Shown one piece after another: positions 13,922-59,800 of a DNA stretch of 64,000 bases. Source of the stretch: Straminergon stramineum (Eukaryota; Streptophyta; Bryopsida; Hypnales; Calliergonaceae). The notes under the pieces were generated by a model. That model saw only the letters and a list, made by a program, of their open reading frames with translations, was not told the origin of the DNA and did not search any database. The position numbers and the translations under genes are program-made. The DNA lies in assembly GCA_963920665.1 (NCBI GenBank), contig OY987269.1, positions 498,501 to 562,500 on the forward strand, written 5' to 3'. How positions within the stretch are numbered: the stretch's first letter is position 1; every line of letters begins with the position of its first letter.

Positions 13922-15238
13922 GGTGCTAAGCTACAGTTTCTTCTAAAGTAGATGCTTGGACATGTCATGGATTCCATAAACCTTTCATAGTTCTCTACAT
14001 ACTTGGGAATAGAAGTCATCTACGGTGACCCTAAACCACAAACCAAATCGTAGTGTAGTAGACACTAAAGCAAAGGAGAAGTAGTTGTGAAGTAGTGAAT
14101 GATCTTCTCTAGTTGCATATGTGTCATCTGAAGTCATTCTTGAGTAACGTTGGAGAGGCAACGTAGTAGTAAATGTAATAGAAAACCGGAATGAGATGGG
14201 ATGGGAACCTAAATGAAATCGATTGTGAATTTCTTGAAATGTAGCAAAATTCTATTCCTAAAATGTGCACAAATATTTGTTGCCATCTTCACTTCAAGCA
14301 ATTTTCCTAGTTCTACCAAACTATGATGAAAAAACATTATATTCAACGTGCTATAAACCAAATTGAAGAGCCCACCAATTTCACAACATTTTCAATACTC
14401 AGAAGAATTAAAAGAAACTCGATAAATGAAAAACAATTGAAAAACATTTCGAGTAGGAGGGAAAAAAATCAAGAAAGACTAGCCTTGCAGTAAGATACAA
14501 ATGAGTATTAGAGGAATGTGAAGGGTGAAAAAAGGACAACAAATAAAAGAAAATTGAGAGTGGAAAACGTTTTCAAATATAGTGCTCAAGAATTCAGAAT
14601 GGAAGTTGAAAAAATAAAGAAAGTGGGGAGAAATCATGAAGATTATGAAGAAACGAAGATTAGGCTATTCCAAGGAAATTTTATAGGCTTCTGGTGAACG
14701 CTCCACAAATACAAGAAAGGCAAACCAAAAAGAAGGAATTACGAAATAAATAAACCACCCTAAACCTGACAATGAAATGAAGAATCAAAATTCCATTAAC
14801 GGAAGTAAATGAATTAGTAGAAAATAGGTCCTACATGCCTTCCTCTTGCATCTCTTCCTTCACTACACTCTACAGGAAGTAAAAGAAGAGTCGAAGGACA
14901 CGTCAGCCATCTTTCAACTTGTCATTTCTCATTCACAACTGTCCTAGCCATCTTAGTCATTCCTGAGTCTTATTTCAGTCATTTTTCAATCATTTTTAAC
15001 ATCAATCAATCATTTTGTATGTGACAGTGGCCTCCACATTGGAAGTTACAGTGCCCACATGACACAATTGACGAAGTTCTGAATGGAAAGCAAGGTTGAA
15101 AAGTAAACTTCCTCCAGTCCTCATCCTCCAGTCATGCTAATGACTGCGAAATGACTTGGGCGTTGTTGGACCTTCGTTATTGGTGCAATTAGAGAGAGCA
15201 AGTTATTTTCTAGTCACATTTTTCTAGGAGTCACATCT
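13922..15238. other. Right subterminal region of CACTA 1
   Basis: No coding sequence. AGTCATT, TGACTT and AGTCACAT words become dense toward the TIR, especially 14880-15240. The last 100 bases align with 41420-41480 of CACTA 2. The middle (14200-14800) is A-rich. Confidence 0.5.
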
Positions 15239-15271
15239 TGCAGTCACATTTGTGCCCACTTTCTTGTAGTG
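15239..15271. repeat. Right TIR of CACTA 1
   Basis: 33 bases beginning TGCAGTCACATTTGTG and ending TTTCTTGTAGTG, differing at a few inner positions from the CACTA 2 right TIR (41481-41513). Confidence 0.85.
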
Positions 15272-37658: not shown

Positions 37659-37866
37659 GTCTCGTTCTCACTTTCGCTCCCCGATCTCAACCGGTAATTA
37701 AAGCTCGAACGTTCAAGGACCACAAGTCTTGCAACGGACACTAATCGCACAGGTCTCGCACAAAAGGCTGTCACGGAAAAAACTAGTCGACAGGCACAAA
37801 GGCAAACACAGAGCACAGACAGCGTTGGGCAAACGAGAATGAGAAAGAGTTTGACCTAGGTAGCTC

Positions 37867-37884
37867 CAGTTCTTTTATACCCGT
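37867..37884 (-). promoter_or_regulatory. TATA box of gag-like element copy B
   Basis: The minus strand reads GGGTATAAAAGAACTGG about 215 bases upstream of the ORF start, matching the site at 2664-2680 in copy A. Confidence 0.5.
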
Positions 37885-38141
37885 TGGACTCCCTGCCACC
37901 TCATCCTGATTCATTCCGAATCCGGTTTGTCTAAAGTATCCGGTCCATTCCTATCCGGTCAGATATCCATTCCTACCCTTCCACTTCTTGGGATCTGGAT
38001 TGGGTAAATCTTTCCACTATCTCATTTTCCGCTTTTTATTTAGATCTAGATGGTTCCTTAGCTAATTCCGGATACCTATATGTATTTTCCGGTTAACCTG
38101 ACCTGGTAAACCAAAAAAATCTAAAACCGCACGTTGTGACA

Positions 38142-38620
38142 ACAACATGCAATGAATTGTGAGGCATGGAGAGCATCGGGGCATAGAGATGGTGCTGCCG
38201 GGGACCCTTCCAAGCTACACAATGTCAAGTGACTAAGCAGTCTCTTCCGATTGCCCTATTGGAAGGTAAGTCGAAGCACTCCATTCCCTTAGTCACAACA
38301 TCGACTTCTGGGTGACTCTTGGGCACTTGGTGAGTGTCCTAATAGTCAGGTCTGAGTAGAAGAAATGTACGCAGTCACACCTAGTGACTTTGAAATGACT
38401 AGTCCCACTAGGGGTTTGATTGGAACCGTCCTGCAGTGCAATTGCAGGCGGAGAAGAGAAGTTTGAGGTTGTTGTGGTTATGGAATGTTTGGTATCCTTA
38501 GAATCGTGTCCCGTCTTTTACAAGGAAGTTCTGTTGCTTTGACATGATGAAGCCTACGAACCACTACTTTGAGAATCTGAAGTTCCTCTACTAAGCCTGA
38601 ATGTGTTGCTCCACAGAAAC
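38142..38620 (+). pseudogene. tnp2 remnant exon end plus intron (CACTA 2)
   Basis: GHRDGAAGDPSKLHNVK then LSSLFRLPYWK| matches the end of the tnp2 core exon of CACTA 1 (about 11540-11637), including a shared TGA before LSSL. The donor is AAG|GTAAGT near 38267. Everything upstream of this in the tnp2 domain is missing. A noncoding intron follows to about 38600, acceptor CTCCACAG. Confidence 0.6.
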
Positions 38621-39555
38621 TTCTGATTTGCTACACATTGGATGCCATGCATTGCGAAATGAATTTGGCAAAGAATTTTTTGAAAATCATTACAGGGAAG
38701 AAAGATACTGTGAAGGTGAGGAGAGATTTGCAACGGCGGAATATTAGGAAGCACCTTTGGTTGACACCAAATCCACGAAAACCGGGGAAGATGGTGAAGC
38801 CTTGTGCTTCTTTTGTTATATCGGACAGCGAATTTGAGAAGTTTGCAAGTTGCCTTGAGTCTTTGAAGACACCGAGCGGCTATTCATTTGACCTTGGCAA
38901 GTGCATCCGGAAGAAAAACTTTGGTGGCCTCAAGTCCCATGATTACCATGTGTTAATGCAGCAGGTTCTGCCATTAGCACTACGAGGACTAATGAAACCC
39001 AGGCCATGCATGGCTGTGATGCGAATGTGCAAGGTCTTCAGGCGCTTGTGCACGAAAGTTTACAATCCAGCAGACTTTGCATCACTAGAAGTTGATGTTG
39101 CAGAGAGCATGGCTCTATTGGAGATTGAATTTCCACCATCTTTTTTCGACATAATGACACATCTCCCTTATCATCTAGCAAAGGAGATGGACTTGTGCGG
39201 ACCAGTGAGCGCAAGGTGGATGTATCGTGTTGAATGATATATGAAAGTGTTGAAGAACCATGTGCGGAATATGGCACGCCCCGAAGCTTGTATGGCAGAG
39301 GGCTACTTGAAAGATGAGTGCCTTGGCTTCATAACAGAGTACTTCCAGAGATTTGAGGCCACAACGAGACGAGTATGGGACGAAGACGAAGAGTACGGTG
39401 ATGCTGAGGAAGTGCTCCAAGGAGCAGGCAAACAGTACGTGATGAGTCCTCAGCTCCGGGATGTAGCACACCAGTACGTGCTGACAAATGTGGCAGTTAT
39501 GGAAGATTTTTACGAGTATGATCCAGTCGCATCCTTTCCTTTTCAAGGGACCTGA
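38621..39555 (+). pseudogene. tnp2 C-terminal DUF4218 exon (CACTA 2)
   Basis: YTLDAMHCEMNLAKNF, CIRKKNFGGLKSHDYHVLMQ, LPLALRGLM, FPPSFFDIMTHLPYHLAKEM and GAGKQYVMSPQL give the DUF4218 module. One TGA at 39236 (YRVE*YMKVL) is the only interruption; CACTA 1 reads through there (MKHYLKVL). It ends FPFQGT with TGA at 39553. Confidence 0.85.
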
Positions 39556-39840
39556 TACATATCCCTCATGCACCCATTGCACAACACTGCAGTGTAGGTA
39601 TTTAGCATGTCCAGAATGTCACCTGGTAGTTGCATGCAAGATGCGATGCAGTCATTTATGCAAAGTGAGATGAGGTCATTCCCTAGTTTTACAACTCCAT
39701 AGCGACTGTACTAAGTCACTTGTAAGTAGTATATGTGTGCAGTGTCTAGTCGCATCACACAGTCCCCTTACGCCTTGCATGTTTCTATTTTCCCTTTCCG
39801 AAATTCTATATAGGAGTCCACCTGATTGTGCAAAGTTTAC
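39556..39840. other. Intron of tnp2 (CACTA 2)
   Basis: Short noncoding stretch with CAGTCATTTATG and AGTCACTTGTAAG words. Confidence 0.4.
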
Positions 39841-40583
39841 CTTCTGGTAGGAAGTGGAGGACCGAGGAGAGGACAAATCCGTCCATTTCAACATTAGCTG
39901 AATGGATCTGGAACTCTGTCGAGGAGTCCAACTTGAATCTGAGGAACGCGGAGGACATGGACCGCCTCTTATTAAGTAGGAAGCCATCTCAAGTGGCAAC
40001 TTGGTATACGTGAATGACTGCATTCGGTAATCACTTCCGTGTGGAGGACGAGACATTTGCCCGAATGGTGAGCTACAACAGTGGTGTAGCTTCAGTGTTC
40101 GAATTACCCTCCGAAAGTGAAGCGGATGCAACAATTCCATATGTTGGAGTTCTGCAGAATATATTGCTTCTAGATTACGAACCATTGCAAACGAAAATCA
40201 TTCTCATGCGATGTGAGTGGATCAAGCCCTACGATAACCGAGGTCTTCCAACGTACACTCGATACGACGCTGGATTTTTGGTGGTGAACTTCCGTCACAA
40301 ACTCCTACGCTTAGCTGAGCCATTCATCTTTCCTAGCCAGGAAACTCAGGTTTTTTTCTCGGATGTTGTAGAGAGACCAGGTTGGAAAGTTGTTTTACGA
40401 AAGGAAGCCCGAGCAAAGCAAGAAGTTCTGGACACAACAGATGCCTTTATCAGCACAACAATGGAGAGTCTAGGCCTTAGTGCTCCCCGTCAACTGCCAG
40501 CACCGATAGATACAGTAAATCTAGTTGGTGCCATAGATTTATCTGTAGAAGACAACCTATTGGCCCAAGAAGAATACCAGTGA
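39841..40583 (+). pseudogene. tnp2 C-terminal DUF4216-like exon (CACTA 2)
   Basis: After RTNPSISTLAEWIWNSVEES and one TGA at 40011 (CACTA 1 has Trp), the frame is open for 189 residues. Blocks are FGNHFRVEDETFARMVSYNS, YVGVLQNILLLDYEP, MRCEW, VVNFRHKL, EPFIFPSQETQVFFSDV and GWKVVLR, ending NLLAQEEYQ. This is the DUF4216 module, the last part of tnp2. Confidence 0.8.
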
Positions 40584-41480
40584 GAATACAAAGCCTTATT
40601 GTTGTAGTCATTTCTGAGATTGTCGACAATTGTGTCTGTAGACATTTGACACTTGAAAGCTATGGCTTACATGACACTCACAGCTTTTCCACATAGCTAC
40701 AACATTGAAAGCACAAGTCATGTGGTTCAGGAGTTCATTAGTAGTCAATGTCCCTTACATTACCCTTGCAGTGACATCTTAATCAGTCCCTAGTGGTAGT
40801 GCAAACATGTAGAAGTCATTCAGCAATCACGTTGACGCCTACGGGTAATGGGAAAAATACACATGGCCCCAGTTTGGAAGTTTCTTGTACTATGCATACA
40901 GTGACCCTCTAACTTTGGGCATTTTTGAAATGTATTAAAGTATCCTTGGCCAAAAATTTGCAAGTTTCCTATCACCATGACCCACTACAATGCAATTCTG
41001 TAGTACTGAGTGCCTTCCATTTAACTTTTGCAAAAGCAATTATACTTGCCATGATGAGAAAATCATGGATTCTGAAATCATGTGGCAATGCACTTCGACT
41101 TTTCTGTTATTGCCAGCCCCTAATTGACACGGATTCACTTGCTTGCGAAAAGGATATTTTGTCCTTGAACTCCATTGCATGTCCAAGTATCCCATAAGTC
41201 AACTTCTAGTCGTGTCGAAGTCAACGTAAGTTATAGTGTATGACAACAACTAACTCCCTCATGACTGCGTGTCCACGGTGGAATTCTATCGTGCCACATT
41301 AGAAAATCTCCGACACCGTGAACAAAATTAGGCGGATGAAACTGCCCCCCTATCATCGAGGACATCCTACAGTCACAAACACAACTGCACCCTAACTCGA
41401 ATGCTGTAGAGCTACCCACAATGGTGCAATTAGAGAGCTCCAGTCACACTAAAGTCACATTTTACACGGAGTCATTCTTT
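40584..41480. other. Right subterminal region of CACTA 2
   Basis: Noncoding with AGTCATT, AGTCACA and TGACTTC words, densest at 40730-40840 and 41200-41480. A 90-residue open frame at 40925-41197 has no counterpart in CACTA 1 and is not supported. Confidence 0.55.
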
Positions 41481-41513
41481 TGCAGTCACATATTTGGCCA
41501 TTTTCTTGTAGTG

Positions 41514-42272
41514 CATCCAAGCACCATCAAGTCAAGGTAGGAATAATTAGAAGAAGGCGCGAAAGGCAAAGTAGTTAGGGTGACAATTAGTTAGGATTTG
41601 AATTTTGAATCTGATCCGGGTTTCCAGGTGTGGGCCCGGATTCCAGATTTGTAGAATCTGACTTTCCGAGTTTCTCGGGAAGTCTATGATTGGTCACTTG
41701 GATTTCCGGGTGGCTTTTTGGCTGGGGGTTTGGGGGTTTTAAGTGAGGGGCAAGTTTGTTGCCCTCTCATTCCATCCTAGCGCTTGTAGTTGGTATCTTG
41801 TTAACCTTTCTTTAATCTGAGCCACCAAGTGGACATTCAGGAATTGATCTGTCGTATATCTAGCTTTTCTATGTTTGCTTGTGAGAGCGTTGAAGTGTAA
41901 GAGAGAGGAGGAGGAAAGGAGGAATCCGGATTTGAGGTGACTAGATCTGATTTGGGAGGGAACGTTTGTAACGTAGTTTAGACTTGTGAATACGGTCTTA
42001 TGCATGGTGCCTTTAAAATACTAGAATGGAAATCCAGCAAGGAGTGGCGTGGGTGCAAGTCCGAAATACCAAGGAAGTTTCCTTGCAGAGATAAGCAACC
42101 ACTAGCAGAAAAATCCCCATCCTATTCTCCCCAGAAAGTCTACCAAACCCTAGGATCAATCTAGTGAATGACTAACAATCCCCCATCGGTTCCGGTTTCT
42201 GTTGATCTGTCGTTGTAGTGGAAAGGACTTGTTACGGCTCTGAGTGACCTACCTTTCGAATTGGCCATCTAG
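41514..42272. mobile_element. Host element flanking CACTA 2, downstream part (H2)
   Basis: It directly continues gag-like copy C: joining 25214 to 41514 gives GGGCATCC..CATCCAAGCACC, matching GAGCATCCATCCGGGCACC in H1. It is collinear with 15272-17388 minus the solo LTR. Many stops in all frames; noncoding or decayed. Confidence 0.65.
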
Positions 42273-42445
42273 GAAGTTGTGAGAGTGTTTCTTGGTCTTA
42301 TCTAGTGCAACATTTGGTATAAGTGTGTTTTGTGTAGTTTAGAGAGAGAAGAGAGTGTGAGGAATACGAGTGGTGAGTCCCTACCCCTCTACAAGATCAA
42401 AGGCGGACCTTCTGAGAGTAAAACAAAGGCACCAAAAACCAATGT

Positions 42446-43282: not shown

Positions 43283-43392
43283 TCTTGCAATCACCCCTAT
43301 GTTATAAGCACCTTCCATGGTTATAGCATGTTTATATAATAAGTGACCAATTATATTATGGGTGCCTATGTTTTAGGTATCTATGTTATAGG
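43283..43392. repeat. TATGTTATA minisatellite left of the Mutator-like element
   Basis: Two to three degenerate units of CTATGTTATAAGCACCTTCC and ATGGTTATAGCATG... The same repeat continues at 56643-56775 on the other side of the element, so the element interrupts one tandem array. Confidence 0.65.
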
Positions 43393-43722
43393 CAGGGTTG
43401 CTAGCATGTGAGCCTGTGAGCCTATGAGCAGGAAATTTTTTTGTGCGAAAAAATGGTTGAAGGACCTATGACCGTGGACATGAGAAAGTAAAAAGTGCAA
43501 AGAATGTAGAGTTTATTTCGCAAAATTCAAAGCGCTTACCCCTTTATTTGATTAAAGGGTTTTCTAGAACAAAATGTATTTCACATAGATGAAATTCTTA
43601 TAGTAGGAAATAAGAATTAGAAGAACGCATGTCCAAGATATAGCCATAAAACACACAAATCCAATCATAATAGAAAACAATACACAATAGTACGACTCAT
43701 GAGATATGTCAATTTCATGAGT

Positions 43723-46700
43723 CTAAGTCGTAGTGCAGTCGGTCGCGGATTCGGAGGACTTGGATGAATTTGAAGACTCTCTACCCTCAGATGCAGACCC
43801 ATCTATGAACTATAAGACATTTAGAGCGTATGTGTCTTTACGGCGTTTTGGTTTGGAGCAACCAAAATCCACAAAGGCTGTTGCCATTTGGTTGGCATAA
43901 ACTGGAAGCTCGTATGTCTTCTCCGGACTACATAGAAGACTCTGTTTCTTCATCATTGGATCAGGTGACATCAATCTTCGATGATTGCAAATAGAAATGT
44001 CACCACATTAGAGTTTTGAAAGGTAGAAGGCATCATGTACAAAGAGAATTAAAAAAGTGCCTACTTACTTACTCAATTTTCCCTTCCGAATGAATTTGCA
44101 AGGCACCACGTGCATGGCATCTGGATCCTGTGAAATTGCAAATGTTGGAGGCTGTGGCGTCACTTCCTTGGCAATAGTGGACTTCCGCATGGGTTTAAGG
44201 ATGGCCTCGAAGATGTCCTTGTTCTCCTCCAAGGCCACAATGTGACAGCCCGTGCCATGACAAGCGACGATGGATGCACCTGTAGGCACAGAAATTTAAA
44301 AATATATTATGAGAAACTGAAATTGTACTTTGGTTACAATTGGGAGGTAGAGTAGTATAATTGAATATTGACTTGTGGATGCGGTGCAGTCAAGAATCAG
44401 ATCTCCTGGGACGTTGGTAGCTTCAAGGAGGATTTGAAAGAACCGTGGATCTTTTTCGCAAGCCCCACGCCAAGGCTTCCCGTCATCCATGGCCATGTCA
44501 TCTGGATGGGTGTAGTTCATTAGCATGTTGTCTCGTGCGATGTCGACACCAGCCTTCACCATCATGGTAGTGCGCTTGAAAGAGAAATTGGATTTCCCTT
44601 TCGTGCCCAAGTCCTTCACCACCAAGGTGATTCCAAATTTCTGTGTCTGCACAATCATCCAAAATAGGTGTAGAATCATGAGCAATGCGATGAAAGTAAT
44701 GCATGTGAAATTGCCATTTGGAATTGCAGAAATCGAATGTAGTTTACCGTCTTGGTTTTGTCAATGGCCGAGGTCAAGTGCATGCGGTTCATCCCCATCC
44801 ACTCCTTCTTCTTGACCATGTCATATGTTTCATACAACCCTGCAATATCCGACTTTGCTTTGGCACTCCACGAATGGAAGACTATGATGCGGCCGTGGTC
44901 TTGGAGATGATTGGAAGCAAAGTTGAAGGCCGACTGCAGAGCTTCATCTCCCACGTCCTTGTTCCAATCCGGCACCTCATGTGGCGGAGAAGACAGCCCA
45001 GGCACAGGCAAGTTCTCCGGGTAGTCAAAGAACATGACATCCACCCCTAGCCTAGCTTTAGGGACACCATGGAACATGGATGTTTTCCCTACCGACACCT
45101 GCAAAGGCATAGTGGATCCTACGATGACGATAAATGAACTCAGAGTACAACCATGTGAATGAGAACTTATGACCGTATTTTCAAATCCCAAGAGACATGC
45201 ATACCTTGTTCAAGAAGTCCACGACTTCTTTGTACCATGTCTTTGTCTTGGACTCCATGTCATCCACAAGGTCGTCAATGGAGATGTTCAGAATGAGATT
45301 CTCAGACGTGTCCAACTCGTCGTCACTGAGAACGATTGCCTTTGTCACATGAGTGATGACCTCCTCCGTGAGTTGTGAGAGGGTGGCCTTCCTCTTCACT
45401 TTGCAATCCAACTTGTAGCTCGGAGCCTTGATCCACCATGGAGGATGCTAGGACTTGGCCATCACCCGAGGCCTTCTTCTTCCCTTTGGCCTTGGCCTTT
45501 TCTTCTTTCTCCATCTCCTTCTCCTTCTCCTTCTCCGCCATCTTGGCAAGTCTTTCGGCTTCCTTCTTCTCCTTGGCGGTGAGAAGGACTTGAAAACGGG
45601 CCTCTTTTTTTCGGTCATTGGCTTCCCTCCTCGCAATGGCCTTCCTCTTTTGCCTATCCGTCATTCCTACAAACTCGTCCACATTCAAGTCTATGGCCCC
45701 TTTTCCATCCAACAATGCTCGCAGTTGCACCTCGGACGGATGAGTGAATGCCAGTGCACAGTCCAAGTACCATGTTCCTCCACTGAGGTGAGCCGTGGTA
45801 AAAGTGCATAGTTGGTTTGCTGAGAACATGCAGTCCCCTAAGCTACGGTCCAACCATGACGCTAGGAAGGGAGGCAAGTCTTTCCTTTCGATGGCACCCT
45901 TTGCTTCGAGCTCATACTTGAAATAGCTGTGGAAAGAAGAATCAATCATTCTAGGCAATTAGAGACATGACTACAACAACGTCTACGAGCTCAGCACATA
46001 CAATGGAGTTTCACAACCATCCACATTCCATCTCATTCAATGTGACAGAAGTAGATGTTTTGAAGGGTTTTGTCATGCACACATCAGAATTTGAAGAAAT
46101 GAGTTGTTGCCAAACTGATTCCAATCTCATAGGTCTAAGAACATACCGATAGAGAACCCTCCTAACCACCAAGTTGGACCCCTCAGAATTCGTAAAGGAA
46201 TCCCCCTTCTTGAAATAATTTCCTCCTTTCAGGTAAGGATGGAATCCTTGGTCCTAGATCTTCCTCCTCCATCCCTCAATGTACTCTTGCAAGGTTTCCA
46301 GTTGGAGCGGGACCTTCATGTCAATCTTGATGTTGTCTTGTCTGACGACCGCCTCGAAGTATTCCACTACAGCATCTTCGAGCTGCACGAATTGATGATC
46401 CCAATAATTAGTTTCAGTCCACTATGAAGAATAAAGGGACATTACGAATTGAGACATGTTATAATCGATTGTCATAACGAAACCGTGGAAATCAACAAAT
46501 GAAGTCGGCTGAGGCACTTACCCCCACAAACCAAACACACTTGTTCAAAAAAGGGCCAAGGTGTGTTTTGGAGACTGGCCTGGCTGGGAACTTCCTCGCA
46601 TCACAAGATGGGATGGAGGAGTTCCACCACTACAAGAACTTCACTTTGTGCTCTGCCGTGGTGTTGCACGTGGTCACCATTTGCAATTTTTCGAGTGTCA

Positions 46701-48107
46701 TCTCTGGCACCTCGTTGGGGCTCCAATGCCTCTCCACCTACATTACCATGAATGAATTGAGTCATGATTGTATAGGCAGATCCGAACCTAGATACTTTAT
46801 TGGCATGATTTCATGAACATGAGGACTCACCTCTTCAAGGAAGCCTGCCCCGTAAGCGGGATTGGCCACTGTCAGGAACTTGATCATTTTCATGTACAAC
46901 TTCATGTTTTTGTCCTTGGCCCCTACCCTCATGGCATGAGCTGCTCCTTCAGCACTCTTTTCATCAGTTGGTGTTGTCTCGTGGTATCTTCGAAGCGCCG
47001 CATCTACTGCCTGTGCAATCTCTTGTTGTGGAGTCCCAAGAGTATATTGTGAGGAAATTGGACGGGCAAGAAGCACAAGAACACCAAAGAAGATTCCAAT
47101 TGAGTACTTCACGTATATAGAGAATGTGTATCTCACCCTGAAGACGAATGAGGTGAAGACCTTAGTCGGCATGGTGGACCATGTCTTCCTCGATGGCATT
47201 GCCACACATTTTTTCTTCTCCGATGGCCTGAGCATGTCATTGAACCTTTCCATCGGTAGCAAGCCATACTTTTGCACCCAGTACAAAGTATGTACCAAGT
47301 TCGTCTTCACGTGGGAGTCCTCTATAGATCTGCATAGTGGTTAGAAGTTCCTGCTTTGAGTACATCATTTTGCAAGTTTATCGGAACATGAGATTCAGGT
47401 ATAAAACTGAGAATGAAATGATAGTGGGAATAGTGACCTCACTTGTTGATGTCATGCATGACTTGCATGACAATCTCAATTTTGCCTTTGGTGTCCAAAA
47501 CAATATTGTCCACCGCAAAGTGCCAATCAGGATTTGTGGAATACATTCTGGAAATGACATTCATCCAACCCAGGCGTCGGTGGTTTCCGTCACACTCGAA
47601 GAACTTCAAGTTCTTGAGGAATTTCACTACGGACTGTGAGTCCACGTACTCCTCAAATGTAGCATTCTTTTCCTTCCAGAGAGGGGCCCATTCATCCATC
47701 TCTTGTGTTGGGAACTGTGACATCTCGCCCGCCTCATTCATGGTGGAAACGTAGATGACTGCTGCCCCATCACGGTATCCACATGCAAACTCTTGCTCAA
47801 GAAATTGCACGTCGCATGAGAGAGTTGGCCGCACCATTGGCATAGCGAGAAGCCGGCAAAGAGGAATCGGAAATCGGAACATGTGTTCCGGCTTCATCCT
47901 CAACACATTGATGGTGGAGACGAAGTCAACTCTCTGCAGCCTCTGTAGGTCATCCTCCAACAAGTCTTTCTCCTCTTCATCCAACATATCCTCCTCAATT
48001 AGGTGTCCTTCTTCCTCTACTCCGATTTCAAGTTGGGTAGTGTCATCGGTCCCTGGTGTTTCTACAATTCTATCATCTTGAGTTACATTTAGAGGCGAGA
48101 CATCCAT
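43723..48107 (-). pseudogene. ParB-like plus N4/N6 amino-methyltransferase-like protein
   Basis: Minus-strand gene from ATG 48107 with about ten exons. Exon 1 (to about 47440) is acidic, then has FPIPLCRL, LSCDVQFLEQEFACGYRDGA and FFECDGNHRRLGWMNVI, resembling the GxHR box of ParB/sulfiredoxin-like domains. Middle exons lie at about 47327-47137, 46999-46828, 46758-46520, 46425-46150 and 45940-45207; the last has a K/E-rich coil and a frameshift near 45450-45600. The domain exons follow: 45095-44751 with LGVDVMFFDYPENLPVPG (motif IV position) and GRIIVFHSW; 44646-44385 with RTTMMVKAG, PWRGACEKDPRF and NVPGDLILDCTAST; 44280-44060 with ASIVACHGTGCHIVALEENK (motif I/II). The last exon (43975-43723) ends SESATDCTTT. 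The order, motif IV before motif I, is the beta class of DNA amino-methyltransferases (PF01555-like). DPPY is DYPE and FxGxGT is TASTGAS, so catalysis is doubtful. Three in-frame TAG codons (46630, 46254, 43810). Confidence 0.6.
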
Positions 48108-48336
48108 CTACCAAGACAACCACGAAAGAGGATGACCAAATAGGCATGGATAAGAATAAATGTACATGAGATATACCAAGGCCAAACTCCACGGCAATGG
48201 ACCCAACGCATCACTTCAATGACCAATTGAAACAACACTTGTAATAAAATTTCTGAAGATGTTCAAAATATGGTTTCCTCAAAGGTCACACCTAGCATAC
48301 ATCATAATTTGTAATTATAAATGACATCAAGTCCGG

Positions 48337-50904
48337 TCAACCCTCAAGAATCTCAACATCACTCTCTGAATCCGAGCTCAGAAGAATCATGACCTCTCCA
48401 TGCCTACCCATACTATCGGTACAATCACATTCCTCAAATGAGGGACTAACGATGGACATGGATGTCTGTGGCTCTAAGCTATATTTGGTATCAGAACTCT
48501 TAGAGGAAAACTCCAGCTGCATGCGTTTGCAAGTGTATCCTACAATCAGGTGACCCGGCCAATTGGTATTCCAACTGAGCATCAAGTCTTGAGAAGCCCT
48601 TACCAAGTCCTCCTCCTCGCCTTCTTCGTCTTCAGAGTCACTTGATACATCGATGTCTTCATCCGCGGGAGTTTTGGGCTCGAATTGCTCTCCACCGTCT
48701 TCCTCTGTGCGAGGCGTCACTGACTGCAACAAGGCTGACGGTAATCCGCTAGGTCCTTCCGAAACCTGAAACCAAAATTATGTAAGATGCGTTGAACTAC
48801 CAAGAGGTCGGATCCGACTGATCCTCTGGGCGTGTCTGCTCCACCCCCAAAAAATGGGACCCCAAATATTTTTTGGCATTCAATCTCAAACTAAGGAGGC
48901 AACAATTGAAACTAGAATTCAAGGGCAAGGGGATCCCTGGGCGGCCCAAAGCCTGGACCTCGCCCACAGCGGCAAGGTAACCCGCATAGTATCACTGTAA
49001 GTGGGACACAGAGACACGGCCCAGCGACGGGGACCGCGAGGCCACACCTCCGCCACGGCCCCTGTGCTCGTGCACCATGAGCTCACAGCGGCGTCCAAAT
49101 TTTTTGAGAATCCAAAAGGTCCCATTTTGGGGGGGTGGAGTTGGCACCTGCCAGGGTCAAGTCGGATCCAACTGATCCTCTGGGCGTGTCTGCTCCACCC
49201 CCCAAAAATGGGACCCCAAATATTTTTTGGCATTCAATCTCAAACTAAGGAGGCGACAGTTGAAACTAGAATTCAAAGGCAAGGGGATCCCTGGGCGGCC
49301 CGAAGCCTAGACCTCACCCTCAGTGGCAAGGTGACCTGCATTATATCACTGTAAGTGGGACACAAAGACACGGCCCAGCTTAGGGACCACGAGGCCACAC
49401 CTCCGCCACGGCCTTTGTGCCCGCACACCGTGAGCTCATAGCGGCGTCCAAATTTTTTGAGAATCCACAGGGTCCTATGCATTTTCAGAATTCTAGAGCA
49501 AAGGCTTCAATGTCAATTTTGTGCTATGGGAATGGGCATGAAGTTTGAACCTTGTGGTAGCCGCCGAGCTTGCGTGGCTGCAACGTTGGTGTCCCTTCGA
49601 GGTCCTTCGCGTCATCTTTCGCGCGGCTTCGTGTTGTTCGCTTAGCAAGCGCACTCTCCTCCCTCTGCGCTCATGTCATGGTGGACGCCGCGTGAGAATT
49701 TGGCAACAACGCACACACTCTTTGAAATTTGAGATCAGGTTTTCAAGTGGGGAGGTCAACTGCGCCCAGGATGTGGGGCTCGGCGATTTGGAAGGGGATG
49801 GACTGTGTGAATCGGGGTGGAGCCCGATAGGGCGGGGACCCCAAAATTCGGAGCAGGAGGACTGGGCAGGCGGCCCAGGCCACGGCCGACTTCGGCGCAC
49901 CTCATCTCGGGGAGAGGAAACTGCAAAAGGCAAGGAATGTGGGAGGGTTGGGCAATGCTCTCTCTATTTTCAGGTTTCATGATCTTTCCACCAACACCCT
50001 CACTCAATTTACAAAGTGCATGCACTTCTCAATCTCTCGATCTCTCCGAGAACGTGATTGACAAAATGCGGCCATGCAAAACTGATGCCATGCACGTAGT
50101 GGTCGCGACTACGCAGGGACTCGCGGGGCTTTACTTGGGCTTCACCGTGCTTAGATTAAAGAATAGACGACATTTTTAATCTGTGTATCTCATGCTTGTC
50201 AAAGGTCTATGATTTTTCTGTCTTCGTAAATTCTACAAAATAATTCGACCTGTCGATTGGAAGTCGTTAATTACATGGCCCTTGGATTTTAATTTTCTTT
50301 ATGCCGAATTTCACAAACGACGGGCATGATTTGTAACCATAAAAACGGCTCGCTACTTCTATATAGTCAAAGCCTACATTTCTTCCCAAAAGACTTCCTC
50401 TTGTGACGGAGACTAATCAGTCATTTCTCTCTAGGGATCCACAATTCCCCCTAGACTGTGATCTAAGGGTAATTGAATATCCTACGGGATCGTATTTTTT
50501 TTAATTGTTCTATTTCACAAACACATTGGACGCACTGATTTCTGGAATCATAAACCTCCTTTGCACAAGAGAAAAACGAAGTATGTCACTTGGGACTAGA
50601 AGAATAAAAAAGCATAAATGGAATTAATACTCACAGTGGCCCTAGAGTTGTCTTCTTCATGCTTCCAATTGACACGTGATTCCTCCAACATGGATTGACT
50701 TCCACCACCATTTTTTGGTACGGGGCCATCCTCTCCACTACTTCCTCCACCAGCAAAGCGAAGGGACTTCCTCAGCTCTCTAGGTGTAGACTGAGAAGTC
50801 CTAGACACTACCTTCTTCTTGTTCATCCTAGACTTCTTCAAAGCCTTGGAGGAGGAGAAAAAAAAACTACGACGCCTCTTTCTACTCCTCACGGCAATAG
50901 GCAC
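48337..50904 (-). CDS. Two-exon gene of unknown function, acidic SIM-like C-terminus
   Basis: Exon 1 runs from ATG 50904 (MPIAVRSRKRRRSFFF, strongly basic) to NWKHEEDNSRAT at 50635 with donor GTGAGT. Exon 2 starts after TTTGGTTTCAG near 48766 as VSEGPSGLPSALLQSVTPRT and joins in frame. The roughly 229-residue product goes from basic to Ser/Glu-rich and ends SSDSESDVEILEG. That end resembles a SUMO-interacting motif (hydrophobic V-x-I-L core beside acidic and serine residues). No stop interrupts it, unlike its neighbours. I do not recognise a family. It is divergent from the transposase gene and upstream of the methyltransferase-like gene on the same strand, inside the same element. Confidence 0.5.
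48767..50634 (-). other. Long intron of the SIM-tailed gene
   Basis: Noncoding on this gene's strand. It holds the 354-bp tandem duplication at 48807-49476 and a GC-rich stretch (49500-50160) with overlapping open frames on both strands, none convincing. Confidence 0.4.
48807..49476. repeat. Two-copy tandem repeat, unit 354 bp, with internal inverted repeat
   Basis: Copy 1 starts at 48807 and copy 2 at 49161, both with GTCGGATCC.ACTGATCCTC. They are about 93 to 95 percent alike by eye. At the junction GGTCCCATTTTGGGGGGGTGG (49128) faces its near-inverse TCCACCCCCCAAAAATGGGA (49194) across about 45 bases, so the boundary could form a hairpin. Confidence 0.8.
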
Positions 50905-51487
50905 AAGTTCAGCTCCTCAGGATTCTCCAAGCATAAGGTGAAAGAACTCTACATGAAACCTCCCTCTCCTCCCCACAACCTATAAGATGGATGCCAAATA
51001 AAATGGACATGGCGAAGTTGAGACTCAAATCACATGCTCTAGTTTCAGAGCTTCGGCCCAGGTGTACGACATGGATTTGATGAATTCCTATGTGCTTGTC
51101 GGGCTGTCAAGCGGATTAATTCCACCTCATGGCAAAAATTTGAATGTGCCGCTTAGAGGCAATTATAGAAGTCGGGGATTTCGACATCAGCCCACACAAT
51201 TATTTTTGCTCCTTTTCCAATGCATCGGTGACAAATCTAGTGCCTCCACTTAATGAACAGCAAGAAATAAATGATGAGGCCGTTTCAGTTTCCCCGAGGT
51301 CTCGGACATGCAATAAATGAATACTTGGATGGCGGTGCATAATGGGTAGCTACCTCTGGCGGTGGATTTTATCACTCAAATAACATGATTAATTATCATA
51401 CCTACCCTAATTAACGTATTGCTCACCCAAATTTAAATTCCAAAATGAAAGGCTACTACATAAGGGCATAAGGCCATCTGAATTTGG
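50905..51487. promoter_or_regulatory. Divergent intergenic region in the Mutator-like element
   Basis: About 0.6 kb between the SIM-tailed gene (minus) and the transposase gene (plus). No coding sequence or clear TATA box was recognised. Confidence 0.35.
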
Positions 51488-54400
51488 ATGCCTTCACTGA
51501 TACCAAAGTTCCATTGCCTCTCAACGTCCCTCAGCTCCTGCTTGTGTTCCACGAGGATGGCTTGTATTAGAGTGAATGGTCAAGATGCTCCGCTTGTGTT
51601 TCTTGTAGACGATGGACAATTAGCCAAGATCATGAGTCACCTCCTATACGTACGCTTCAAATTTGTAGAGTCCTCCATCTACATTGAAGAGGAAAAGTTG
51701 TCCCAATCAGGTGAATTGGTGCAATCCATTTCGGTTGTCAAGAGTCTAGATGGAGATAGCCATTGCTGGTACCTAGCCCCAGGGAACTACAGGGCTTATG
51801 GACTTCCGCTTTCCATGCTAGGGGTTTCAATAGAAATTTCGAGTCAACAATCGGATAACTCCACAGTCGACATGCCATATGTTGCGCGCACAGTGTCACC
51901 GAGACCGGCCCGTCAAGGCTTCCCAATTCTCCTTGAGAGTACAATTCTATGGTCAGTGAAGGTAGAGAAACTAGAATCCATCATAGAATTGTCGAGTGAA
52001 TCAGAAGGGGAGTCACCTAATGTGATGCTTGAAAAGAAACAACGCCCAATCCCTCTTGAGTTGAGGGAAAAGGCTTCTACACACTCAGAACCAAACACCC
52101 CCTCCAATAGTCCAGCCCCATCTCTATTGTCACGTCCTCCGGTGCACCCATCACCTACTCAACAGGTCAATATAATGGAGTGCTTGAAGAGATTGGTGAA
52201 TGTGCGGCGTTCGCAGAATGAACTATCCAATATGGATGTCAACGCCTTTAAGCATCACCGTATGCAGTACTTGCCAACTAATTTCAACGGGGACGTCATC
52301 TTCGAATTGCCCCCGTGTCAATCTACATCCTCCTCCTCAACGGCCAAGAACCTTGAGGGAATGGACAGGTGGTACGACGGACACCTGTGGTGTAAGCTGA
52401 TGACCACGAACATTCACAATTCCAACAACCTCAAGTTCCATAAGTCATACTGCGCCGGACACCTTGCTTGTCAAAATCCTAAATGCGATTATGTAAAAAG
52501 GGCTTCCAAAATGAACGAAACAAAGTGGACCGGTTACACGATTTGCCCTTTTGATAAAGGGGGGACTCCTCCCAAAGATTGTACTCTAGTATGCAAAGTT
52601 TGCAAGAGCCCCCCTCTGTGCTTGAATACATGTGATGCTAGAATATACTATGTATATTGCGATAATGAAAAAATGACTAGGGCCGCTATACACTTCGGAG
52701 ATCATACGCACCTTGTAGTGAAGGGTGTGTACAAAGACTTCACAGAGAAAATCTCGAGATTCATTGCACAGCAGGTGGCCAAAACGCCCACGGCCACCAA
52801 CTCTGCAATTGCACTCTCTGCCAGCAAAGAGTTCCTCACGAACTATTTGTTTCACAATGGAGAGGGGGAGAAAGAGATGTTGAACGGAGAGGAACTAGAG
52901 GAAGTGATGGATCGATTCCAATATCTTAGCAGTCCGAACATTAGGAATGTCATTTCATCGTTTCGCTCCAACAATAAGGGAGGGGTCATCGACAACATCA
53001 TGACAATGAAGAAAGAGTCAAAGTTTGAGTTCATACATGACAGTGTCTTCCCAGGATAAGGAAGGGAGAAGGTCTACCTCTTCAAAATGCTCACAGAAGG
53101 ACCCGGAAGTGGAGTGGACCTCGTCAAACGAATGCAACCAGGAGGGGATTTACAAAACGCATGGATAATGTTTGACCACGTCAGACGCATCAACGAGTGG
53201 AGTACCATGGCATGCCATGTGTACGATGCGGAGTACAAAAAAGTTATGACCGTGGCCACCTGCAATATGCAATCGGAGAACACGGAGATCCAAGTCCAAT
53301 TTTGGAGATCTCTAAACACAGTCATGGCAAGACATGGAGTGGAACACACCAACTTCAAAGGATTCATGGCAGATAGCGTGATGGCCAATTGGAATGCGGC
53401 ACGGATTGTCTACGAAAGTGGGTCACCCAATGAGAAAATGGAGAATCGTGAGAAGACGTGCTTGCTACATTGGAGTAGTTCGCTCCACAAGCATACCCAA
53501 AAGCACATCAAAGAAGCATTCCAACAACAACACATTACCCTCTGCAAACAATACAAAGAATTCAAGACTGTCGAAGAAGCAGAGACACGATACCTTGCAA
53601 TTCGATCTTGGTGGTTGTCATCAGGTGCTGCAAGTGAAGAAGATCTTCATCACTTGGACCACTGGCGAGCCTTCTGGCATTTCCGATACCTATAGTGGGG
53701 AGGCTTCATGACTATGGTAAGTGACTTCCTAAGTTGATTTTGAAGTATCCATCCTCCTCTATCTAAAGCGGTTGTTGAAAAATAGAGGTGTACCCTCCAA
53801 ACTTAGAGGCATGTACGTGGAGACTTTAATTGAGAATATTCCAGTAGGAATTACTTTTAACTTCTATGAATTCAGTGATGAGCATGTGAAGGGGGACCCA
53901 AATGGGGGGTCAAGGATAGGGCACCTAGACCTTAGTCGGATCCAACTGAAGGTTTTGGGCTGAAATATGTTACTCTTTTGGAGAAGACTCCCACTCAAGA
54001 AGGAGCTCCTAGACCCCCTCCTAAGAATCTCATGTGAGTCTTTTTCCTCAAAAGTAGACGTCTTCTGTAGTAATCATTTGTACATAAAATAATCTCTTTT
54101 GTATTTTTACATTAATGAACGTCTTCGTCTGTAAGCAAATGAAGTTCATACACTTGGAATGAGTCCGGCTATTAACCCTCGAAAATGAAATTGGATGTCC
54201 TCACTCCTGTGTTATGGATGGATGGATTTGTAGAAATTGAGTTTGGAAGAGATGACCGACCTACCTTTCTGCAATTTGTCCGAAACAATTCACAACAAAT
54301 GGCTTCAAATGTCAGGAAAGTGAGGAAACAACCTCTTCGACGCAACTTGCAATGACAGCATTTGTGCATGGATGCAAATGACCAACTACCGGGCACACCT

Positions 54401-55622
54401 TAGAGGACATGCATCTAGATCAAGGCCGTCCAAGGGGGAGCTCAAACTCAGAGCTGCGAGACGAAGTGGATGTCCCAAGAAAATCGCAGAAGCATTGAAC
54501 ACGTTGCCTAGAGCAGAGGGAGTGGGAACAAGAATACCACACTTGGAAGGAGAGGAAATCTTTGGGAGCACAAAGAGGAAGTTGGACATACCCATTGGTG
54601 ATGTCGGAGATTCACATAGACCGGACAAAGTGAACTTCTCTCAACCACATGTGAGAACTAGGTCTACAACGGCTTCTCTTCAATCTTTGGAGGGCCCAAG
54701 TGAACAACCTCAAACCTAGAACCCTAAATATGTCACTACGGCATTTGAAAGTGACTGTGACACCTCCAAGTGGCACATTGCTAGGATTAGCCACAAGTCC
54801 AATGCAAAATGCCACGCCCAACAACGGACCACCAACATTAGGTGCGCCTCCAAAATCGCAAGGGGAAGGAAGGGAACACCAGCTCCAACCTATCGAGGCA
54901 GGAAAGAAGATTATGGGAGCAAGTGGGAGGTGGTGGTTGACTTCTGGTTTTGTTGGGATGACATTGAATGATGTGTAAAGGGTACGAAAAGGAAGTGGGT
55001 CATTAACTTGCCTGAGGTACCAGAGGTGTGGCCCGTTCTCAGTGGAACCAACTTCGATAGGGAGGAGACTCTGCTGCTGCAACATGCAGGCTTCCACCTT
55101 CAAGAAAGGCCAACATTGTCCCCACGGCGACTCTTCACCATGTCGAAAGTTTTCCAAACTGTCTCCTACGACCAACCAACGCCCAAGAACCCGGATGCAT
55201 ATCCAACGGTTAGGAACAACCGAACCATTCGAAGGATAGCCAATGCACCAACTACGAAACAACGGGACAAGTGGGAAAGTGCAGCAAATGTTAGAGGAGA
55301 AATAGTGGGAGTCACCTTGCTCCCCTTTCCAGGCCTTGGTGCAATCGTGGCGCTTGAGATAGGGACAGACACTAACAAAATCATCTATCGAATTACAATG
55401 GGTATGTTCCCCACTTGCACATGCCCAGACTTTGTGAATATGGTTGTTTCAGCTATTGGAGGTCGACAGCAATATGTGAATTGCAAACACCTATACTACT
55501 TGTATAGGTACTTTTGCAAGATGGACATCCATGAAGACAAATTCATTCATGCACCTAGTTATAGCTTCAATGAACTGAAGGTACTCCTAGTTCGAGCAGG
55601 AATCATTACAGTTCCAGAATAA
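51488..55622 (+). pseudogene. Mutator-like transposase: WRKY-GCM1-type zinc finger, DDE, SWIM
   Basis: The first 523 codons (51488-53056) have a Ser/Pro-rich linker, then WYDGHLWCKL and C322, C328, C333, C369, C372, C378, C382, closing GDHTHLVV (H406, H408); this is a WRKY-GCM1-type chelating pattern as in MULE transposases. Next come the catalytic regions: MACHVYDAEYKKVMTV (first Asp), FKGFMADSVMANWNAAR (second Asp), CLLHW, then, after an intron from 53715, FCNLSETIHNKW (Glu) and ELKLRAARRSGCPKKIAEAL. The SWIM finger is CTCPDFV...QQYVNCKHLYYLY near 55418-55503. The last exon ends at TAA 55620. Stops at 53057 (TAA), 53693, 54231, 54717 (TAG), 54321 and 54969 (TGA) inactivate it. An alternative start is the Met at codon 24. 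Confidence 0.75.
53715..54160 (+). other. Intron in the transposase gene
   Basis: It starts with donor ATG|GTAAGT after WGGFMTM. A 63-codon frame at 53772-53963 (RGVPSKLRGMYVETLIENIP) looks protein-like but I could not place it; it may be an unrecognised exon or an inserted fragment. Confidence 0.4.
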
Positions 55623-56580
55623 GCATGGCTACATTTATCCGCATACTTCAATTACATAGTATTCATTCACATATATTGCGATTGAAATGATTTGCAGTGT
55701 ACAGAGGAAAAATGTTAATGCATTCATCAAATATAGAAGCATGTTTCATAAGTGAAGTGATTTGTTGCCAATTCATGGAAATGACTATATTTCCAAGTAT
55801 TTTTCCTACTTTCAAAACGTCTTCATAGTCTTTTTACTTCCAATGTGTTCCCATTCATTTTCCCATTTTTTTATTTTCTGTCCCCAGGGTTTTTTCCCCA
55901 TTTTTTTACCTTTCCCCATTTTCTCCCTTTCCTCATTCTTTGGATTCCCCGGGTTTTTTTCTTTTCACATTTCGTTTATCTTCTCCATTCCCTACAATTT
56001 GGGGGAGGATGTCAACATTTTGGCAGTTCTTACAAATATGAAGAGAAATGAGTTTTATAATTGTAAATTATGTAAACCACCAAAACTTAAGATTCGAGTC
56101 AAATGCCGATCCTAAATCCACCATGGCTTCTACTCATCATCTCACCCAAACCTTGAGGTTTTGTACTCAGCCTACACAAAGTCACATGAAGAATCCCAAT
56201 TGTTCTAGGATATTCACACACCAAATCCTATGTATTTAAATTAGGTAGTGACCACAACACCACTAAGTTGTGTCCAAATGGCATCTATCTATAATATTGA
56301 AACCATCTAGCATATTTCCCACTATAATCATTGAACTAAATGCTGCAACTTCCCAATCAAATTTGACAATCTTTTTCTATAGTAATAAGCAATTTCAAAA
56401 GAAAAAAAAAGAACTCATTCCAGAGTCCACGGTTTTAGGGGACACGGTCATAGGTCACAATTTTTACTAAAAATAGGAAATTTTTGTCCATTTTGGGAGA
56501 AAAAATGAACAAAAAAAATTGGGGGGCAATTTTTTGCTCCAAAAAAGTTTTGGGGGCTCTAGGCTCACATACTCCATGCT
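55623..56580. other. Right subterminal region of the Mutator-like element
   Basis: AT-rich with a pyrimidine-rich block (55790-56000, TTTTCCCATTTTTT-like). No gene. Confidence 0.45.
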
Positions 56581-56642
56581 CACATACTCCATGCTCACAG
56601 CTCACAAGCTCACGGCTCCAAGCTCACACGCTAGCGTCGTTG

Positions 56643-56775
56643 ATGTTATAGGCACCTTCCATGGTTATAGTATATTTATATTATAGGTACCTATGTTACA
56701 AGCACCTTCCATGGTTGTAGGGTACTTATATTTTAATTATATATGTTATAAACACCTTCAATAGTTGTAGAATAT
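56643..56775. repeat. TATGTTATA minisatellite right of the Mutator-like element
   Basis: Two to three units of ATGTTATAGGCACCTTCCAT with GGTTATAG, period about 55 to 65 bases, continuing the array at 43283-43392. Confidence 0.7.
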
Positions 56776-56832
56776 GTACTTACACCTAGGCTCAAGGCTC
56801 ATAGACTCACATTTCTAGGCTTATATACTAGC
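56776..56832. mobile_element. Degenerate second Mutator-like right end
   Basis: AGGCTCAAGGCTCATAGACT and CTAGGCTTATATACTAGCATCATTG resemble the true right end (GCTCACAAGCTCACGGCTCC ... GCTAGCGTCGTTG) and again follow the TATGTTATA repeat. It may be the remnant of an older related insertion. Confidence 0.4.
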
Positions 56833-59800
56833 ATCATTGGCATCCACAAGCCTCTTGGAGATTGTTCTTTACAACAATTTGTACCAAATCATATGCAAAA
56901 TTAAATCCTATTTTACAAGATCCTATATTAGTTATACATCCTTGCATTTATGCACGATATCTCGCTAGTGCTATCGGATTTTGCTCATGTCCAGCCAAAA
57001 TAATGAATGGTATCTTTGCACTCTATTTGCTGATGTGAAGAGAAAGCAAGGCCAAAATTTTTTATGCTTTCTTTCACATAACAAATGAGCTGATTACCCA
57101 GGAGAATGCAAAAAAAATTCTAAAAATTCTATTTTAAAATACCTATTCACTTCATCCCAGTTTTGCTTTCATATTGCTAAGCAATAGAAGCCTACTCGGG
57201 GTTCAGCACTTGGTGTCGCCCTCTTCGCTTTGGTCAAAAGAGCAGCTAAATCTTACAAAGAGCCAGTAGACAAAGTGTGTTGTTCGTAAAGTAAATATTG
57301 CATTTTTGTATTTCGGTTGGACCTGTAGAGCAAATAAAGTAATCTTTGGCCCACAATACCATGAGTGATGAGTGGAAACAACTTCAAATTTGGATCTTGA
57401 AATGCTGGTGTTTTTTTACTGTAGGCATATTGCTAGGATCGTAGTTCTTTTCTAGTCTACCTTACACTCATAAAAAGTGAGAATATTCCCATCATCAAAA
57501 TAAACTATTCATTATAGATAGTGGGGTTTGGAAAGGAATCAAAGAAGGGCTCAAAGTCCCCTTGTATACCAAAGAGGGATCCAAGCACTTTGTGAAAATC
57601 ATGGTAGATCCATCCTAGATCAAAATGATCACAAATTTTTGGTAGTGACTTTTGATTTTTAAGTGGCCACCTTTGGACTTCTTGAGATTTATCCATAATT
57701 AAATTTTTTGCAAGCCAAAATGGTTTTTGAGATAAATGGGTATCTAAAATGAATTATTGGATTTTGTTTTTTCCTTCACTTCTTCATTATGATTAAAAAA
57801 ACAATTTGACATCCAAGGAATTTAATTTTTATGAAGATCGAACAACTAGAAAACAAATTTACCCCAATTTGCCTTGGGAGAGCACAACATCGTTCTACTT
57901 TGGAGATTTGCATACTTTTTCCTAATACTATACTAAAATTTGAAGTCTTTAGATCTTTTTTGAAAGAAATATTTGATAAATGGGGCTAAAATGCCCTACA
58001 AGAGGCCACATTGTCAAAAGTCCAAATAAATCTTGAAAATATATTTTGCTCCACTTTACAAGTATGCTTTTTAAACAAATATTTTCCTTTGAATCCAAAC
58101 CTTTTACATGTAACCCTAATACTAGTCAAAAATAAGTTTTGACAATTACAAATTCAAAAACATAAATGAAATTTGATCAATAGTCCTTTTTTTAAAGTTG
58201 ATTTTTGGCAGTTTCAAGGGTATTTGCTAACTTTTTACTAACAAATCTACAACCTTTAATAATATTATAATGGATAACTAAGACAAATGCACATTCAATC
58301 TCTTGTTACTAAAAATCCCAAAACAGGTTAAGGAAAATTAGCCAAATGTTCATTTTTGGAAGAGCTTTTTGAATTTAATACTAAGGACATGACAAAATTA
58401 AGTAGCAACCGAGCAAAATTTATCCAGTTATAGGATTGTAGTCGTTATAGAATGTCAGCCAAGACTTTTGGAAGGAATCCTAACTCACACAATATTCAAT
58501 ATACAATTAGTGGTCATTCTGGTTATGAATAGATTAGGTCCAATTATGGCACTAGTGATCTTGGCTTCGTAAGATTAAATCTTACAATAACTTTTTGTTT
58601 TGTTTCATTAACCCCTAAACAACCAAGTTTTGTTTTTTGGCAACATAGAAATTTTGGGCAGGTATGTGTGACTAGAGATTTCCATGTTTTTAGCCTCAAA
58701 TTTAATATAAGGTGTAGACAAGGAATATCTTTCATGTGCGCTAAATTTCAAGACATTTTGAAATATGAGTCCAAAGCTATGGCCTAATATGTAGTTTGTT
58801 TCTCAACTCGGGCATTTGGGGAAGATCTAAAAAAATTGCTTTTTCCAAAAATAAAAATTTGAAATTGATATTCTAGATTTATATATACATAGAAAGCTTT
58901 GAATCATTCCATTTTGATCATTGAGTCCAAAGTTATGAGATGGTTTAGTTTGCAAGCAATTATGGATTTTCTACTCTAAAATAAACTTTGAAGTCCTTTA
59001 TTTAACTCAATTTTCAATATTTTTCAAAACAAAAAAATAATAAAGTAGATGTAGATTATTTATTATAACATTACAACCATTGGGATTCGCATTTTTCAAT
59101 TCCAGTATTAAGTTGTTAACAATTTAGTATTTCAAATCATTCTTTACATCTTTCTACTTACTATTTTTTTCCTACATGTTGCACAATTCCAAATGATCTT
59201 GAAATTTTCAAGCATATAGCCATCTTACTTTGAAGAATGAATCTAAAGAAGCACCACCATTTGGGACATTTTTTCTTAGAAATGTGACCTTGTGAAGTGC
59301 AACTGCCCAATTTTTCACAGGGCCAAAAAAAGGATTTTTGTCACTTCAAATGCTAATATCTTGCAATCTACAAGGTGAAAATTTCTGAATTTTTTTTCCA
59401 CATCTTCTACAACTAGAGTACTACAAGATCCTATAGTTACATGTGTCCAAAAATGATATTTTTCAAAAATTTGGCACTTGTATTAGAAATGAGAGTTTTT
59501 GAGAGTTTTTGGTGATAACTTAGTCAAGAAAATTTAGGGGTAAACTTCTTGCTTGGAGAGAGTTTTGATACAAGTTGCACTACTAGCATCTTTCAAATTG
59601 CACCTTAAAAAATTCATAACCAAATCAATGGATGTTATCCATTTGCACAACTAATTGCATCATTAGAAGATATTTGATAGCTTGAAGAGGCCACAAGTTA
59701 TTTTGAGTTCCCAAGGTGTGGGAACTCACCACATCAGCCATATGACATGGCACAAATACTGCCATGTTAGAAACTAATATTATTTTTAATTATTTTTTAA

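Follow-up and report, generated by a model that had tools for sequence, protein, structure and literature searches.

A high-copy, MULE-like DNA transposon of Straminergon stramineum carries a conserved ParB/methyltransferase-like gene with degenerate catalytic motifs

Transposon genes that combine a ParB-like domain with a DNA methyltransferase domain are already known from algae. The brown-algal element Sola1-1_Ec32 (Ectocarpus) carries a gene for a ParB-like and N4C/N6A methyltransferase protein on the strand opposite to its transposase, and similar green- and red-algal proteins are cited (PMC12477816). A second useful comparison is offered by the VANDAL elements of Arabidopsis, described as encoding an accessory, sequence-specific DNA-binding protein, VANC, with tandem-repeat targets (PMC5735166). 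Here we describe a DNA transposon of Straminergon stramineum that occupies positions 43393–56642 of a stretch of 64,000 nucleotides (the window; C7:498501–562500). It contains three genes: a transposase gene resembling those of Mutator-like elements (MULEs), a gene for a protein with a tail resembling a SUMO-interacting motif (SIM), and a ParB/methyltransferase-like gene (Table 1). Copies were sought in the genome (326,016,511 bases in 59 contigs) through exon 1 of the last of these genes.

As in Sola1-1_Ec32, the ParB-like and methyltransferase accessory gene lies inside the transposon and opposite in strand to the transposase, and the two proteins are comparable in size (1104 amino acids in the algal element, 1016 in our joined reading). 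The transposase of Sola1-1_Ec32 is a Sola1 enzyme, whereas the present element is MULE-like, with 10-bp duplications, and has the SIM-tailed gene as a third gene; moreover, the catalytic motifs are degenerate here, the algal protein being compared by its description (PMC12477816). The VANDAL elements with VANC resemble the present one in having an accessory DNA-binding protein, here a predicted one, with tandem-repeat targets, here putative; unlike the present protein, VANC is not described as ParB- or methyltransferase-related in the abstract of that report, descriptions being compared (PMC5735166). A literature search covering titles and the openings of abstracts returned no ParB–methyltransferase accessory gene from a land plant or a MULE. 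The preliminary description of this locus, which knew of no plant MULE with such a gene, confined its claim to plant MULEs; algal transposon cases are already on record (PMC12477816). What is new is the other transposon type, the third gene and the loss of the catalytic motifs.

The limits of the element were established by comparing both end regions with ten other copies (c1–c10) using blastn. Similarity begins at 43390–43393 in all eight copies whose left end could be matched (none was obtained for c4 and c8) and stops at 56642 in five of the six copies with a right-end match, the exception being c3, in which it stops at 56584; c4, c5, c6 and c9 gave no right-end match within the stretches fetched. 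The interval 43393–56642 is therefore one copy of a DNA transposon, and the ends proposed in the preliminary description are correct to the base. Its termini, CAGGGTTGCTAGC.../...GCTAGCGTCGTTG, form short, imperfect inverted repeats common to the copies. In the window copy alone, the local alignment of the two ends scored 54, as compared to at most 46 in 300 shuffles; however, one of 300 random window stretches scored 62, so that the terminal repeat of a single copy is not beyond chance. The possibility that the terminal repeats are fortuitous, which the window alone could not exclude, is ruled out by the comparison of ends across copies. A degenerate second right terminal repeat (CTAGCATCATTGG) is found at 56790–56845, about 190 bases beyond the element.

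The element is flanked by a 10-bp target-site duplication (TSD), ATGTTATAGG, at 43383–43392 and 56643–56652. This duplication, only a candidate in the preliminary description, is perfect (10/10) in four of the five complete copies (the window, c1, c7 and c10) and matches at 9/10 positions in the fifth (c2). These TSDs were read at one constant offset from the flanks; automatic matching returned instead 11 bases, shifted by 1–2, for the window and c7. Joining the flanks across the window element restores a unit of a local repeat, ATGTTATA(G/A)GCACCTTCCATGG. Both ends also carry arrays of the hexamer GTGAGC in inverted orientation, with two units on the left and six on the right in the window, and 1–2 on the left and 4–5 on the right in four other copies.

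The three genes proposed between the paired ends are all real and conserved, and their order and strand are the same in the ten fetched copies, some of which are interrupted. These near copies were picked among the closest ones with no more than one stop in exon 1 of the ParB/methyltransferase-like gene. The 3′ exon of the SIM-tailed gene is present in 10/10 of them, the N-terminus of the transposase in 9/10 (not c6), and the three methyltransferase exons (7–9) in 8/10, or 8/9 where the stretch reaches them. As for the interruptions, c4 and c5 gave no SWIM match, and the transposase of c9 is split. Thirteen further copies were chosen as diverged (65–80% identity in exon 1) and stop-free there. 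The methyltransferase exons were found at the expected place in all 13. In the interval 3.0–5.6 kb upstream, four of them carry the N-terminus of the transposase and one a C-terminal fragment of it. The preliminary description had called for a search for copies with the genes between shared ends, and such copies do exist. Exon 1 occurs at no fewer than 150 places in the genome. A chance pairing of unrelated genes is ruled out by the single gene order in ten copies and by the shared ends. In the protein database, nine contig sizes (15,646 to 422,261 bases) recur among the matches listed for the transposase and for ParB (64 transposase and 45 ParB sizes of at least 10 kb, with 119 of the 120 listed ParB matches entered, one having no length); no unequal pair fell within 10 bases and one fell within 50. 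Equal size would then mean one and the same contig. Overall, the element is a high-copy DNA transposon which makes 10-bp TSDs and encodes three conserved proteins.

The ParB/methyltransferase-like gene consists of nine exons, whose borders were set by eye at GT–AG. In the window it is damaged by in-frame stops in exons 4 and 5 and by a frameshift in exon 6. The full-length protein had no match in the protein database, probably because its relatives are called exon by exon. With exon 1 alone, 163 relatives were obtained from the database at E ≤ 0.001, of which 120 are listed. In the genome, exon 1 gave 809 first-look candidates; 150 were scored, and all 150 matched at 64–100% identity, 40 of them, the window included, being free of internal stops. 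The AlphaFold2 (AF2) model of this domain matches the ParB, Noc, KorB and sulfiredoxin folds; exon 1 resembles these proteins in the fold predicted for it and in a DGNHR motif where a helix begins. Unlike these proteins, the exon 1 product has no Pfam ParB match, none being found among 54 members. A profile of ParB-like proteins, phrog_1033, was matched by 19 of the 54 members (best E 0.039). The AF2 model lends moderate support to the ParB/sulfiredoxin fold of exon 1.

Exons 7–9 resemble beta-class N4/N6 DNA methyltransferases. Five PHROG DNA methyltransferase families were matched (best E 1.2e-4), while Pfam, including PF01555, and NCBIfam gave no match with the methyltransferase-like pieces, and sequence searches of the PDB with pieces of the element returned nothing useful. 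A tblastn search of phages gave a best E of 0.02 among the 20 matches listed. The SAM-binding half of the domain can be aligned with that of WAX07520.1 from Bacteroides phage BF766P4, a beta-class N4/N6 enzyme (PF01555), the similarity being weak (E 0.09). Phage and bacterial enzymes of this class have the catalytic DPPY and the FxGxG loop that binds S-adenosylmethionine (SAM), both of which are absent from the transposon family. In 22 copies, whose identity in exon 7 falls as low as 54%, the catalytic tetrapeptide [DNS]PP[YFW] was found in none, its position (motif IV) being assigned by eye, nor was FxGxG. The region of motif IV reads FDYPEN in the window and FDC.EN in most copies, or D[CY]x[EK]N overall. 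Motif I reads LDCTASTSAS in the window and DC[ST][AT]S in 20 of the 22 copies, the other two not being aligned there. Since both the tetrapeptide and the loop are replaced, a dead methyltransferase that binds DNA is likelier than a modifying enzyme. The domain assignments of the preliminary description stand as regards the AF2 fold and the PHROG profiles, whereas none of the Pfam labels it pointed to (PF10551, ParB, PF01555 and SWIM) was confirmed, and its suggestion that the element encoded its own DNA-modifying factor is unlikely.

Selection was estimated from ratios of non-synonymous to synonymous divergence (dN/dS; pooled pairwise Nei–Gojobori values, the pairs being non-independent and the decayed copies raising the ratio). 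For the near copies and the window, dN/dS was 0.22 for ParB, 0.32 for exons 2–6, 0.30 for the methyltransferase domain, 0.35 for the 3′ exon of the SIM-tailed gene and 0.18–0.31 for parts of the transposase; when the 13 diverged copies were compared, the ratio for this last domain but two, the methyltransferase domain, was 0.22 at a dS of 0.81. The stretch 53733–53963 had a ratio of 0.57 and was left out of the coding sequence. These values support a constraint on the ParB/methyltransferase gene comparable to that on the transposase, and suggest that the methyltransferase-like domain was kept by selection while its catalytic motifs stayed lost. The introns diverge less than the synonymous sites (Jukes–Cantor distance 0.10 near and 0.48 diverged, as compared to dS 0.15 and 0.81), so the constraint, as estimated from these alignments, holds up, though dN/dS taken by itself makes it look stronger than it is. 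With introns as the reference, selection is weaker, and the ranking of the explanations considered below is unchanged. The copy in the window is decayed and dead, but the family was not.

The main exon of the transposase encodes an N-terminal ubiquitin-like or DIX-like domain, a SIM-like stretch (IIELSSESEGES), a Cys/His domain and a putative DDE core. The window copy has stops at two places, one of them at 53057–53059 in the main exon; of nine other copies, six have no stop at the first place, two have one and one could not be read, and the second stop occurs in 0 of 7 readable copies. The first 500 amino acids have 84 database relatives. For the first 80 residues (51557–51820) a high-confidence AF2 model was obtained in the relative P0001, and it resembles DIX and ubiquitin-like domains in the PDB; the SIM-like stretch which follows fits a strict pattern in 20 of 33 rows, a figure given without a chance control. 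For the core, AF2 gave a model of low confidence. Comparison of the transposase model with the PDB gave 385 matches at E ≤ 10 and none at E ≤ 0.001, the best being to DIX and ubiquitin-like domains. A scan of viral contigs with one transposase relative detected no relative.

The superfamily of this transposase is a matter of competing evidence. The 10-bp TSD falls within the 8–11 bp given for MULEs in PMC6446971, and the C-terminus carries a SWIM-like CxC...CxH, complete in six of the eight aligned copies, window included; both features point to a MULE, as the preliminary description had it. On the other hand, PF10551, the Pfam model of the MULE transposase, found nothing in the open reading frames of the window, in nine relatives or, at E values up to 10, in a set of 33, many of the 33 being without the catalytic half. 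The same 33 gave no meaningful Pfam transposase match (zf-Tnp_2 in two, best E 6.9), the Pfam SWIM score of the window protein is 10.4 bits, below the cut-off of 19.6, with none for the C-terminus of one relative, and alignment of the transposase profile with the genome's own PF10551 proteins by hhalign reached E 0.48, both profiles being shallow. Membership in a different or new transposase superfamily is a possibility which we consider the less probable one, and the element is called MULE-like without being filed as a member. The genome contains at least 26 PF10551 matches, so that ordinary MULE transposases coexist with the unrecognised one.

Taken at face value, the conserved gene with its degenerate motifs suggests, somewhat in preference to other readings, an accessory DNA-binding factor with a dead methyltransferase domain that would aid the transposase or shield the element. 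The ParB-like and dead methyltransferase-like domains would clamp onto DNA of the element itself, plausibly at the inverted GTGAGC arrays of both ends, and the bound protein would help the transposase or keep host silencing away from the element, in the way of VANC and VANDAL, without writing any methyl mark. Through the SIM-like motifs of the transposase and the SIM-tailed protein, the complex may come to lie in SUMO-rich chromatin; this is the weakest step. Our confidence falls from DNA binding, through absence of methylation and targeting of the element's own ends, to transposition aid or anti-silencing. A more elaborate version, in which a selected, non-catalytic ParB clamp and pseudo-methyltransferase would recognise its own element and block or displace the silencing machinery with the SIM-tailed protein as partner, in a superfamily unrecognised by existing models, appears to us rather doubtful as a whole. 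Several observations weigh against the accessory-factor reading. Selecting copies for a near-intact exon 1 favours complete elements; in the 5 kb fetched downstream, c4 shows none of the exons that follow exon 1, c6 lacks the transposase in the stretch fetched, and that of c8 stops short of exons 7–9. Eight of the 13 diverged copies have no transposase match 3.0–5.6 kb upstream (in the two of these that were traced further it lies at 6.6 and 7.0 kb). With 8 GTGAGC units, the ends of the window copy narrowly exceed the maximum of 6 for any hexamer in 1000 shuffles, and the totals of 5–7 in four other copies were counted without shuffles. The phage alignments cover motif I and leave motif IV unaligned, so that motif IV is our own reading; the protein search behind the phage alignment reached an E of only 0.09, and its shuffle score (105 as compared to at most 58) ignores that this protein was selected from among the matches. 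SAM binding may also persist in some proteins whose motifs are atypical. Finally, measured against the introns, the ratio is 0.46 (near) and 0.36 (diverged) for the methyltransferase domain and 0.45 for exons 1–5.

These points bear differently on the other explanations. An active writer of N4-methylcytosine or N6-methyladenine (4mC/6mA) with non-canonical motifs, marking the element's own DNA, would account for the constraint on the domain and its homology to DNA methyltransferases, and self-modification is the idea stated for the algal relatives, Ectocarpus included, in PMC12477816; we judge it unlikely, given that 22 copies show D[CY]x[EK]N and DC[ST][AT]S and never DPPY or FxGxG. The protein could instead be a subunit of the transposition complex, acting in end synapsis or target choice and unrelated to silencing. 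ParB-type clamps load at specific sites, the ends carry inverted GTGAGC arrays, and the gene is constrained much like the transposase, all of which would suit such a subunit; nothing here separates this role from anti-silencing, and we regard it as a serious though less probable option than the accessory factor. A captured host gene or fragment without function, of the Pack-MULE type, would agree with what c4 shows and with a constraint that is only moderate against the introns, but it is highly improbable and was rejected on the constraint itself (dN/dS 0.22–0.32; dN/intron 0.36–0.46), as well as on the presence of the methyltransferase exons in 8/9 reachable near and 13/13 diverged copies, chosen for a near-intact exon 1.

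The remaining features are collected in Table 1. The reading frame at 50596–50916 is the probable 5′ exon of the SIM-tailed gene, with a predicted join to the 3′ exon, and similar frames occur in the diverged copies L058, L065 and L067. Between the two exons lies a direct duplication of 319 bases (48807–49125 and 49161–49478, 91% identical) with inverted repeats. Elsewhere in the window, 1153–17390 and 36323–42274 are two diverged copies of one larger element, with pieces 68–84% identical in the same order, the former carrying extra DNA between 2937 and 11520; their proteins resemble what we take to be CACTA-type transposases. Tandem arrays at 7275–8600, with units of e.g. 22, 81 and 179 bases, contain long open frames with a high P, S and Q content.

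Table 1. Features of the element and their positions in the window.
Feature	Position	Strand	Evidence
Left TSD copy, ATGTTATAGG	43383..43392	.	flank comparison across copies
Left terminal repeat, CAGGGTTGCTAGCATGTGAGCCTGTGAGC..., 2 GTGAGC units	43393..43429	+	conserved end in 8/8 left-matched copies
ParB/methyltransferase-like gene, nine exons	44065..48107	-	same exon order in other copies; dN/dS 0.22–0.32
Exons 1–5 of this gene	48107-47443, 47329-47137, 47010-46831, 46737-46522, 46382-46147	-	
Exons 6–9 of this gene	45926-45205, 45098-44748, 44646-44373, 44279-44065	-	
Exon 1, ParB/sulfiredoxin-like domain, motif FFxCDGNHRR	47443..48107	-	database relatives, genome copies, AF2 model
Exons 7–9, beta-class N4/N6 methyltransferase-like domain	44065..45098	-	PHROG profiles; constraint
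SIM-tailed gene, 3′ exon, acidic, end ILLSSDSESDVEILEG	48337..48777	-	10/10 other copies; dN/dS 0.35
SIM-tailed gene, probable 5′ exon, basic, KRRR...SSSKALKKSRMNKKK...LRKSLRF	50596..50916	-	10/10 other copies; dN/dS 0.48
Transposase, main exon	51557..53692	+	database relatives; 9/10 other copies; dN/dS 0.18–0.31
Transposase, middle coding stretch	54324..54719	+	8/10 other copies; dN/dS 0.34
Transposase, C-terminal exon, SWIM-like CxC...CxH	54972..55619	+	aligned copies
Right terminal repeat, 6 GCTCAC units, end GCTAGCGTCGTTG	56563..56642	-	end conserved across copies
Right TSD copy	56643..56652	.	flank comparison across copies

With this element, transposon-borne ParB–methyltransferase genes extend to a second DNA-transposon type, one which makes 10-bp duplications. 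Within one genome, the gene is present in element lineages that have diverged, its ParB exon occurring at 150 places or more, and its constraint is like that of the transposase. As none of the 22 copies read has the catalytic motifs, binding without modification offers a testable alternative to self-modification, and because the copies are many, their 4mC/6mA and small-RNA state would be directly readable.

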